Below are positions 43,220 through 46,376 of a stretch of 47,829 bases of DNA, in pieces. The stretch is from Deinococcales bacterium. Lineage in GTDB: Bacteria; Deinococcota; Deinococci; Deinococcales; JAAFIG01. Position 1 is the first letter of the stretch, and the number at the start of each line of letters is the position of its first letter. The stretch is from contig JAAFIG010000036.1 of the NCBI GenBank assembly GCA_013298595.1, positions 1 to 47,829 of the forward strand, read 5' to 3'. Under the pieces are notes generated by a model. That model had not been told where the DNA came from, did not search any database, and saw nothing but the letters and a program-made list of their open reading frames with translations. The translations under genes and the position numbers were made by a program.

Positions 43220-44284
43220 TTACAAAGAGTTTGATGCCCCGTTTAAAAAAACCTGCATTCGCTCGAGTTCAGTGGCAAGTTCGCGTTTGAACTGAGCACT
43301 TTTGGGTTGGCGAACATAACCGATGTCTGCATTAAAACCTTTTTTTGTTTCGATGTTTGCCCAACCAATAATTTCGGTGCCGTACAGCATTGGTAGTGCA
43401 TAATAGCCGCGAATGCGTTTTTCGGGTTTGGTGTACGCTTCAAAGCGGTACTCCCAGCCGTGTAACAATTCAAATCTACGCCGATCCCAAACAATAGGGT
43501 CAAAAGGTGCCAGCAGTGTCACACCGTCTCGAGGTTCGGATTGAGGTAATTCGTGTGGCATCACCCATTTTGTGCCATCTATGAAAATTGTCTCGAGCTG
43601 CGAAGCAAGTTTTCTGGTTTCAGGTTTGATACTGGGTGCGCCCAGACCACTAAACGAACACAATTGCAATAAACTTGGTAATGGCAAAGGTGCGTAATTC
43701 CTGAGGATTAATTCGAGAATGCCCTTGGCTCGAGCGGCTGTTGACAGTGGCTTATGGTTATGGTTTGCCATTTCGTAAACCTTAATGCCTTTGTCACGCC
43801 GTGCAACCCGTAATAAACCTTTGTAATGCAGTGCCTCCAGTGCTCTGGTGCTGGCATTAGAAGTGCCGCCCCAATAATTACCAACACGGGTTTTTCCAAA
43901 GTGTTGCTCTAAGGTTTTTGGATGACTTGCCCCATGTTCACGGATGTACTCGAGCACAGCTGGCACAATTTTTGGTGCATCCAATTCAATTTGCATTGGG
44001 GTTTTACGAACTCGAGGGTGGAACAAAGCTGTTTTGGTTTGGTGGATAAATCCGTAATTGACAAAGTAATCTTCGTTTACCTCGAGGTTTGGGTACTGTG
44101 TTTCAAGATTGGTGGCAACATAATTCTCGACCCGAGGACGCAAAATTAAATCTTGTGCCCTTGCTGGAGCACGAATTGGGTCGGCTTGGATAAATCCTAG
44201 CGTTGTCAGAGTTTGCTCGAGGCTTGAGGGCTTGCCTAGGGTTTGGATGACAGCAAGGCAGCGTAGGTCTTTGAGCGTAGTCAC
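43220..44284 (-). CDS. YcaQ-like winged-helix protein (crosslink-repair glycosylase family)
   Basis: 354 residues matching the HTH_42/YcaQ family. LGFIQADPIRAPARAQDLILRPRV at the N-terminus, YFVNYGFIHQT, three winged-helix repeats, and VTLLAPFDPIVWDRRRFELLHGWEYRFEAY near the C-terminus are typical. Relatives unhook interstrand crosslinks and excise alkylated bases. The family's catalytic QxD/QxQ stretch corresponds here to FIQADP, so activity is plausible but unproven. The start is GTG at 44284 with TAAAAT 6 nt upstream. It is the first of a two-gene set with the non-catalytic hydrolase. Confidence 0.88.
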   Translation of the reverse strand: MTTLKDLRCLAVIQTLGKPSSLEQTLTTLGFIQADPIRAPARAQDLILRPRVENYVATNLETQYPNLEVNEDYFVNYGFIHQTKTALFHPRVRKTPMQIELDAPKIVPAVLEYIREHGASHPKTLEQHFGKTRVGNYWGGTSNASTRALEALHYKGLLRVARRDKGIKVYEMANHNHKPLSTAARAKGILELILRNYAPLPLPSLLQLCSFSGLGAPSIKPETRKLASQLETIFIDGTKWVMPHELPQSEPRDGVTLLAPFDPIVWDRRRFELLHGWEYRFEAYTKPEKRIRGYYALPMLYGTEIIGWANIETKKGFNADIGYVRQPKSAQFKRELATELERMQVFLNGASNSL

Positions 44285-44310: not shown

Positions 44311-44922
44311 TCAATGCAATTGCTGCTCGAGTAAATCCTGAATTTCTGCCACACCATAAGGGTCTTCACCACGTTCAAAAGCCGCCAGACTTTGTAGCAA
44401 CATGGCTTTACGCATGGTTGGATTGGCTGCAAGTTCGCCTAAACCCCGAAAAGCACAGGCTTCGGCAATGGCATCACCCGATAACTGCGCTTGCTCGAGT
44501 GCCACACCAAGCCAAGTGCGGGCTTCCTCGAGCTGACCGAGTTTGCCACAAATCATACCTTGTTCGTAGGCATTCGCACTGACAGCTAAAGGTGGATTCT
44601 CGAGTTGCAAAATAATTTTCGCTTCAGCTGCAAAAATTTCTAAAGCAATAACAAAATTTTCTGCCATGCGCTCAACCATACCCAATTGATGCAATGCCAC
44701 ATATTCAGCTGCTAAATTACCAGTAGACTGCGCTTCCAAACGCAACAAACCGCATTCATCTCGAGCTTCATCAAACCTGCCTGTGCGAGCAAAGACATAG
44801 ACCAAACCCATGCGAGCATCAGCAGCCAAAACAGGTTCGAGTCTGGCTTTTCTAAATAACTGCTCGGCTCGAGCAAACTCTTCAAGTTCAAACGCTTGCC
44901 AAGCCATTGCTAACGGATTCAT
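44311..44922 (-). CDS. TPR-repeat protein, 203 aa
   Basis: All-helical protein with about five tetratricopeptide-like units: AWQAFELEEFARAEQLFRKA, ADARMGLVYVFARTGRFDEAR, EYVALHQLGMVERMAENF, AYEQGMICGKLGQLEEARTWLG, ACAFRGLGELAANPTMRKAM. No signal peptide or catalytic motif. The ATG overlaps the stop of the site-2-protease-fold gene by 4 nt (ATGA), so the two are translationally coupled and the TPR protein probably binds that membrane protein or its client. The role is inferred from coupling only. Confidence 0.85.
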   Translation of the reverse strand: MNPLAMAWQAFELEEFARAEQLFRKARLEPVLAADARMGLVYVFARTGRFDEARDECGLLRLEAQSTGNLAAEYVALHQLGMVERMAENFVIALEIFAAEAKIILQLENPPLAVSANAYEQGMICGKLGQLEEARTWLGVALEQAQLSGDAIAEACAFRGLGELAANPTMRKAMLLQSLAAFERGEDPYGVAEIQDLLEQQLH

Positions 44923-45584
44923 GGAATTGGCAAACCAAACACTTGTAAAATGCCGTACATTAAGGTGTAGATTGGTGTTAGCACTAAGCGGAGAATTCCT
45001 GTAACGCTTAGTACAAAGAAAATCAACATAAAACTAAAAGGTAAACCTGCCATCCAACGCTCGAGTTTAGAAAGTTGTTCACGCACACTGGGTGAGCCAA
45101 CTGCAAATAAGGCTCGAGCACCGTCGAGTGGAGGAATTGGAAATAAGTACATCACGGCGGCATAGGTTAACACCTGAAAGCCAAGATATAACCCACCAAG
45201 CAGTGATGCAAAACTGTCATTGCCTTGGGTTATGACTAGTAAAATTGAGGTGACAAGCAGGATAATAAAAGCAAAAAGCATCATTGAAATTGGACCAATC
45301 AGCCATACCAAAGCCTCTTTACTCTGCTGACGACTATACAAACGCACTGGAATTGAACTTGGAATGGCAAAGCCAAAAATTGCCATCCAAATCCACGAAA
45401 AAGAATCTAAATGCAGCATAGGGTTCCCTGTGGTGGTAAAACCACGCTGTTTCGCAGTTGGGTCGCCAAAGGCATTGGCGAGTAGTGCCTGACAGACATT
45501 ATGCAGTACAAAGCCAAAAGCCAATAAAAACAAGGCAATCAAGTACTGTAACGGATCCGAACCAAGATATTGGATAAAGTACAT
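44919..45584 (-). CDS. Site-2-protease-fold membrane protein with degraded HExxH
   Basis: 221 residues with five to six membrane segments. GDPTAKQRGFTTTGNPMLHLDSF and FPIPPLDGARAL align to the site-2 protease (M50B) pattern, in which HExxH is followed by LGDPTxxxxGxxTLNP and ends at NPxxDG. Here the metal motif reads His28-Asn-Val-Cys-Gln32 (LHNVCQ): the catalytic Glu and second zinc His are replaced, so zinc binding and proteolysis are unlikely. The conserved Asp of PLDG remains. The gene is coupled to a TPR protein. An inactive membrane scaffold or chaperone is the best guess. Confidence 0.88.
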   Translation of the reverse strand: MYFIQYLGSDPLQYLIALFLLAFGFVLHNVCQALLANAFGDPTAKQRGFTTTGNPMLHLDSFSWIWMAIFGFAIPSSIPVRLYSRQQSKEALVWLIGPISMMLFAFIILLVTSILLVITQGNDSFASLLGGLYLGFQVLTYAAVMYLFPIPPLDGARALFAVGSPSVREQLSKLERWMAGLPFSFMLIFFVLSVTGILRLVLTPIYTLMYGILQVFGLPIP

Positions 45585-45662
45585 TTCCCTTAAAATCTAG
45601 CACGAACCCTGCTTATACTCGGGGTGAACCCACACGATTGGCATTTTTTCAGCAAATATGTG

Positions 45663-45668
45663 TACGAT
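45663..45668 (+). promoter_or_regulatory. -10 box TACGAT for leaderless gene at 45675
   Basis: TACGAT with 6 nt to the GTG at 45675, preceded by TTGGCA at 45638 (19-nt spacer). An alternative start at 45624 has TATACT only 4 nt upstream. Confidence 0.45.
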
Positions 45669-45674
45669 AGCAAT

Positions 45675-46376
45675 GTGAATTCGCTCGAACTCCTCGGCAC
45701 GATTCAAGCGATGGACTTGGATTTAGACAAGTTACGACTTGACGCAGATAGTATTCCTGGCGAACTTAAAGCCGCACGGGACGATAAAACTCGTCTTTTG
45801 CTTGAGAGTGAGAAGCTCCGCCAAGAACACCACGCAGTACGACGAAAACTCAGTCAAGCCGAACTCGAACTTGCTTCGCTTGGTGAGCAGTTAAAACGTG
45901 CAGAACACGATCAGCAGCACTCGAGTAGCGCTAAAGAACAAGGGCAGTATGCGTCTCGAGTTGTCTCTTTGCGAGACGAAATTAATGATTTAACCGATGA
46001 TTCCTTGCCTTTAACCGAGAAATTAGATGTCTTAAACGCCCAAATCGAAGATATTGGTGTGCTTTTAGATGAACTCGAGCCTAAACTCGTGCATCTTGAA
46101 AGCCTTGACGAAGACCGAATCAAGGATTTGCAAGCTCAGTATCAAAACAGGCAAAATGAGCGTGATACCTTGGCGGCTGGCGTAGACGAAAAAGTTTTAC
46201 GAGACTACGATACTGTCAGAAAAGCCAAAAAAGGGATTGGCTTTGTCACAGTTGTGGCTGGCAAATGTGGTGGTTGCAAAGTGCAACTGACACCTAATTT
46301 ATTGCAACGGGTCAAAGCAGGACAATTCCCTGTGAAATGTCAATCGTGTGGGCGTATCCTTGCGCCATCCACCTAA
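45675..46376 (+). CDS. Coiled-coil protein with C4 zinc ribbon (DUF164 family)
   Basis: 233 residues from the GTG at 45675; the family begins with a line such as LLGTIQAMDLDLDKLR, which follows here directly, whereas the alternative GTG at 45624 would add 17 residues. A long antiparallel coiled coil (about 10-185) is followed by a C4 zinc ribbon, CGGC ... CQSCG. Homologues are widespread and structural studies suggest nucleic-acid interaction. It lies upstream of a GNAT and two membrane/TPR genes on the same strand. The function is not known. Confidence 0.88.
   Translation: MNSLELLGTIQAMDLDLDKLRLDADSIPGELKAARDDKTRLLLESEKLRQEHHAVRRKLSQAELELASLGEQLKRAEHDQQHSSSAKEQGQYASRVVSLRDEINDLTDDSLPLTEKLDVLNAQIEDIGVLLDELEPKLVHLESLDEDRIKDLQAQYQNRQNERDTLAAGVDEKVLRDYDTVRKAKKGIGFVTVVAGKCGGCKVQLTPNLLQRVKAGQFPVKCQSCGRILAPST

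Follow-up and report, generated by a model that had tools for sequence, protein, structure and literature searches.

The locus and its S2P relationship

The window, by which we mean the whole 47,829-nucleotide stretch of Deinococcales DNA that was analysed, carries a gene for a relative of the site-2 proteases (S2Ps) and, next to it, a gene for a TPR-repeat protein (Table 1). A preliminary description of this DNA held that the zinc motif of the S2P-like protein reads HNVCQ and that the GDPT, NP and PLDG signatures are kept. This was confirmed from the sequence itself, with every element found at its coordinates. In alignments, HNVCQ matches HExxH column for column, and D154 falls on the LDG aspartate, the third zinc ligand of active S2Ps, which is present in the window protein. 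The HExxH motif of active S2Ps is absent from the window protein, and from every readable copy of the family in 102 genomes. The aspartate column of GDPT holds Asp or Glu in all HNxxQ copies; the asparagine of NP is not conserved in the family, and its proline is conserved in most copies.

Table 1. Coordinates of the pseudo-S2P and TPR features in the window
Feature	Position	Strand	Remarks
TPR-repeat protein gene	44311..44922	-	203 aa; TPR_19 above cut-off; co-directional, genus-specific neighbour
ATGA overlap, pseudo-S2P stop / TPR start	44919..44922	-	4 nt; direct sequence
HNxxQ pseudo-site-2-protease gene	44919..45584	-	221 aa, ATG start; predicted S2P fold; orthologues phylum-wide
PLDG motif (PPLDG)	45120..45131	-	third zinc-ligand Asp D154 kept; direct sequence
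NP of NPxxHLD stretch	45420..45425	-	residues 54-55; direct sequence
GDPT signature 3' of degenerate zinc motif	45456..45467	-	residues 40-43; direct sequence and alignment
HNVCQ replacing HExxH	45489..45503	-	H28-N-V-C-Q32, codons CAT-AAT-GTC-TGT-CAG; read directly from sequence

Against the Pfam M50 profile (PF02163) the window protein scored weakly, at 19.7 bits, below the 27.2 cut-off, and matched in its C-terminal half only. The S2P kinship is clear despite this score, because profile-profile comparison, profile matches in the PDB and fold matches agree. Comparison of the HNxxQ family with its HExxH neighbours and paralogues by hhalign gave an E-value of 5e-34, and the PDB matches of the family profile were S2Ps only, namely mjS2P (3b4r, E 1.6e-4), SpoIVFB and RseP. 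The best structural matches of an AlphaFold model of the window protein (pLDDT 95.4) were nine S2P structures, with Z-scores of 7.1-9.9, and unrelated membrane proteins reached at most 5.4. An active HExxH paralogue, used as a control, gave the same nine structures (Z 8.3-11.7). The solved structures related to the HNxxQ family are distant S2Ps only. By homology and predicted fold, the window protein is a genuine S2P (Peptidase M50) relative and, together with the column alignment, these comparisons bear out the earlier claim of an S2P homologue that has lost HExxH.

A divergently oriented gene for a CT398/CdsZ-like coiled-coil zinc-ribbon protein (45624-46376, + strand) shares its intergenic region with the pseudo-S2P gene. 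By far the commonest hexamer across the window is the palindrome CTCGAG, with 293 copies in 47.8 kb against about 9 expected from base composition. In sampled stretches of other genomes, it is 17-31-fold over-represented in the sister species (G001), the next genus (G002) and G003, about 11-fold in G008, and elsewhere near expectation or only about 3-fold; its abundance resembles that of the cyanobacterial HIP1 palindrome.

Conservation and origin of HNxxQ

Our sample comprised 111 Deinococcota genomes from five families, Thermaceae and Trueperaceae among them, with no recognisable genome of the genus Deinococcus, and "phylum-wide" here refers to these five sampled families. Family names follow the titles of the matching contig records, and degrees of kinship are those assigned by the search tool. 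A first homologue search found homologues in 56 of 61 related genomes, and a profile search detected high-scoring HNxxQ family members in 102 of the 111. Genomes without a match are mostly incomplete assemblies; at a completeness of at least 90%, 84 of 85 were positive, the exception being G106. The preliminary description had proposed checking whether HNVCQ is conserved among homologues, and HNxxQ is indeed found in all readable copies. It was present in each of the first 45 sequences (45/45; adjoining paralogues HExxH, 26/26) and in all copies with a readable motif from the remaining 57 genomes, which were taken irrespective of motif; every neighbouring paralogue with a readable motif has HExxH. 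In a joint alignment H28, N29, Q32 and A36 are invariant, and the D154 column holds Asp in 99 of 102 sequences, the LDG aspartate being lost in the copy of G002. The invariance of HNxxQ in 102 genomes excludes chance and sequencing error.

The HNxxQ gene is under purifying selection: its pairwise dN/dS values of 0.04-0.24 are similar to those of the active partner and, in several Thermaceae pairs, lie below them. Apparent frameshifts interrupt the HNxxQ gene in two Thermus genomes and the HExxH partner gene in a third (G080, G087 and G053 in all), through either assembly error or sporadic inactivation.

In a maximum-likelihood tree that included 32 Bacillota S2P sequences, the HNxxQ proteins form one clade (support 100/100) and the Deinococcota HExxH proteins another (100/99), and both clades mirror family relationships. 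Support for the HNxxQ clade was still 100 when the motif columns were deleted from the alignment, so the clade is no artefact of the motif. The best explanation is that the change from HExxH to HNxxQ predates the separation of the sampled families. The tree is unrooted and the branch long, and HNxxQ may have arisen either by duplication inside Deinococcota or earlier. The preliminary description had named HExxH orthologues at the same locus as evidence against its reading; none were found, the nearby HExxH genes belonging to the separate paralogous clade. Beyond the phylum, one narrow pattern scan of genome contigs returned 46 Deinococcota loci, none of them from the genus Deinococcus, and in addition Caloranaerobacter, whose related protein reads HELAH; a divergent HNxxQ copy outside Deinococcota is possible, since the scan pattern was narrow. 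The best-scoring 30 Bacillota relatives all have HExxH and none has HNxxQ. A match on an Azospirillum plasmid was rejected as an HNxxQ protein from outside the phylum, its motif being HEAAH.

Neighbouring genes: an HExxH S2P and a TPR protein

In 67 genomes an intact HExxH S2P gene lies directly downstream of the HNxxQ gene, on the same strand and with no gene between them. Most of the 26 tandem pairs that we inspected closely overlap by 1-4 nt (ATGA, TGATG, TAATG, TAGTG) or abut, the widest gap being 70 nt, as in translationally coupled genes. This adjacency was found in at least some genomes of every sampled family. The HExxH partner of the window genome lies on a separate contig (C28:1024-1695, motif HEYGH) and groups with the tandem partner of G002, and no HExxH partner was found in the sister species G001, whose assembly is 94% complete. 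Among Trueperaceae, 33 of the 36 genomes carrying HNxxQ are without an HExxH partner, and HNxxQ is still conserved; those examined for other S2Ps have retained the RseP type. The upstream neighbour in 34 of 45 HNxxQ loci, none of them in the window family, is a gene for a DHH-CBS-tRNA nucleotidyltransferase/poly(A) polymerase fusion, its domains named by eye.

The protein had also been described as coupled to a TPR partner. That part of the claim stands for the window, with its overlapping frames, and for G001, where a TPR gene lies closely 3' of the pseudo-S2P gene and the other flanking genes differ from those of the window. It does not stand as a general feature, the adjacency being limited to the window genus, represented by these two genomes. 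The next genus (G002) has its TPR orthologue unlinked to the pseudo-S2P gene, overlapping or lying behind an acyl-CoA dehydrogenase gene. Among the other genomes tested there was none in G003 and only a weak match in G008, the one hit outside the family. The suggested check on TPR-S2P co-occurrence thus found no general association, the usual neighbour being the active HExxH paralogue, and a TPR protein as general partner of the pseudo-S2P was rejected on these grounds. The TPR gene has the look of a companion that moves between operons, not of a dedicated partner, and a function joining it to the pseudo-S2P at the level of the genus is possible. The TPR gene is followed, after 26 nt, by an AlkZ-like DNA glycosylase gene (43220-44284, - strand; PF06224, E 1e-39), which probably shares its transcript and is missing from the G001 locus sequence examined.

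A proposed non-cutting role and its alternatives

In SpoIVFB the zinc ligands are the HExxH residues H43 and H47, together with D137, and the E44Q change in this motif abolishes proteolysis while the variant still co-purifies with substrate (PMC11486902). Proteolysis by the HNxxQ protein is very unlikely, because its motif lacks both the general base Glu and the second zinc-ligand His; by analogy with the SpoIVFB variant, client binding may well persist. From the invariance of H, N and Q we infer that the old catalytic site remains in use, perhaps for binding or in a polar network. Such strictness exceeds the needs of a mere binding scaffold and may point to some specific task for the three residues. 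A real role that does not involve cutting is probable, given that nearly all genomes examined keep the altered motif, usually beside a working copy of the enzyme.

We suggest, with somewhat better than even confidence, that the gene encodes an ancient S2P pseudoprotease, phylum-wide in the sampled families and typically operonic with an active paralogue, which would act as a non-cutting regulator or adaptor that binds clients or the active protease. The protein would retain the bundle of helices and the cleft that binds clients but be unable to cleave; it would bind transmembrane segments of clients, the active S2P, or both, and such binding would control access, stability or delivery. Where the twin is present, the HNxxQ protein would regulate the active HExxH S2P. 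Where the twin has been lost, as in Trueperaceae, it would work with another S2P, for example an RseP-type one, or serve by itself as a membrane adaptor; the RseP-type S2Ps of the Trueperaceae tested are possible partners, which is a point in favour of a regulator or adaptor. The tandem place is occupied in the window genus by the TPR gene, a local substitute, and the HExxH partner lies elsewhere in the genome. The main counterargument comes from the 33 Trueperaceae genomes that keep HNxxQ without an HExxH paralogue, which disfavour an obligate, dedicated heterodimer.

These same genomes, in which the gene remains under purifying selection, are also a reason to consider a protein whose function is unrelated to proteolysis, a stand-alone membrane factor (a chaperone, or a client-stabilising or ligand-binding protein) whose tandem arrangement is a relic of duplication. 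The three invariant polar residues in the former active site fit this as well. However, the adjacency of HNxxQ and HExxH genes in all sampled families, mostly with overlapping or abutting frames, has outlasted the usual proximity of a relic, and we consider such an independent function unlikely, if still a serious contender. An altered but active enzyme, in which H28, Q32 and D154 hold a metal and hydrolysis or some other reaction proceeds by a modified mechanism, would account for the conservation of H, N and Q and for the LDG aspartate in 99 of 102 copies. It seems improbable to us: the protein has lost both the Glu that serves as general base and a zinc-ligand His, loss of the Glu alone kills SpoIVFB activity (PMC11486902), the family has no invariant alternative acidic residue apart from the LDG aspartate, and even that residue is missing in the G002 copy.

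Two further explanations have less still to recommend them. The position of the TPR gene directly 3' in the window genome and in G001, though the other flanks differ, and the 4-nt overlap in the window are what a dedicated regulatory module of pseudo-S2P and TPR protein would predict, but with the TPR orthologue unlinked in G002, absent from G003 and matched only weakly in G008, set against a phylum-wide pseudo-S2P, we hold this to be highly improbable. The HExxH paralogues present in related loci might raise the suspicion that an ordinary S2P was recently inactivated, decayed to a pseudogene or was misread in sequencing; this is refuted by the occurrence of HNxxQ in 102 independent assemblies, as a single clade with dN/dS well below 1, and we give it practically no credence.

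With the small bacterial S2Ps of the M50/mjS2P/SpoIVFB type, among them the tandem HExxH paralogue and the Bacillota relatives, the HNxxQ protein has fold, length, the PPLDG region and profile similarity in common. In contrast to them, it has HNxxQ for HExxH, its family has lost Asn residues that are otherwise conserved ahead of the NxxPxPPLDG stretch and inside it, and no proteolysis is expected of it. Being an S2P homologue conserved under selection without HExxH, the family qualifies as an S2P pseudoprotease. The preliminary description took a pseudo-S2P with a coupled TPR partner to be a promising undescribed pair; a pseudo-S2P as such has a precedent. EGY3 of plant chloroplasts is likewise an S2P homologue without HExxH, conserved in a large lineage alongside active S2Ps (PMC9355673, PMC10978774). 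It stabilises other proteins (PMC10978774) and, according to a 2022 paper, is the sole pseudoenzyme homologous to the S2P family (PMC9355673). EGY3 differs in being a thylakoid protein reported from plants alone, and its likeness to the HNxxQ family is claimed here for the kind only. The open literature searched describes no bacterial S2P pseudoprotease. It therefore appears that the kind is known and that the bacterial, phylum-wide and operonic version is new. The rhomboid pseudoproteases iRhom and Derlin likewise have an intramembrane protease fold that has been kept for regulation by binding clients without cleaving them (PMC6451368, PMC8641752), but they have a rhomboid serine-protease fold, are eukaryotic and carry extra domains, so that the analogy is one of working only. 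BofA, a membrane protein that controls the S2P SpoIVFB by occupying its cleft, offers a parallel to the proposed role (PMC9042235), but unlike the HNxxQ protein it is not an S2P homologue.

More tentatively, and with rather less than even confidence, HNxxQ may mark a new conserved intramembrane binding or regulatory site in a near-universal Deinococcota core gene, one that would control intramembrane proteolysis by way of its active tandem twin and, in lineages that have lost this partner, by way of other S2Ps or independently, making it the bacterial S2P-class counterpart of the iRhoms. Rhomboid pseudoproteases have reshaped the view of intramembrane proteases, and the S2P class had only the plant EGY3 to set beside them (PMC9355673). 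With its altered yet invariant motif and an active twin coupled to it in translation, the HNxxQ clade, found also in cultivated thermophiles of the genera Thermus and Meiothermus, provides a tractable and stable system in which to study dead S2P folds, and the Trueperaceae, where the dead copy has been kept and the live copy lost, amount to a natural experiment.
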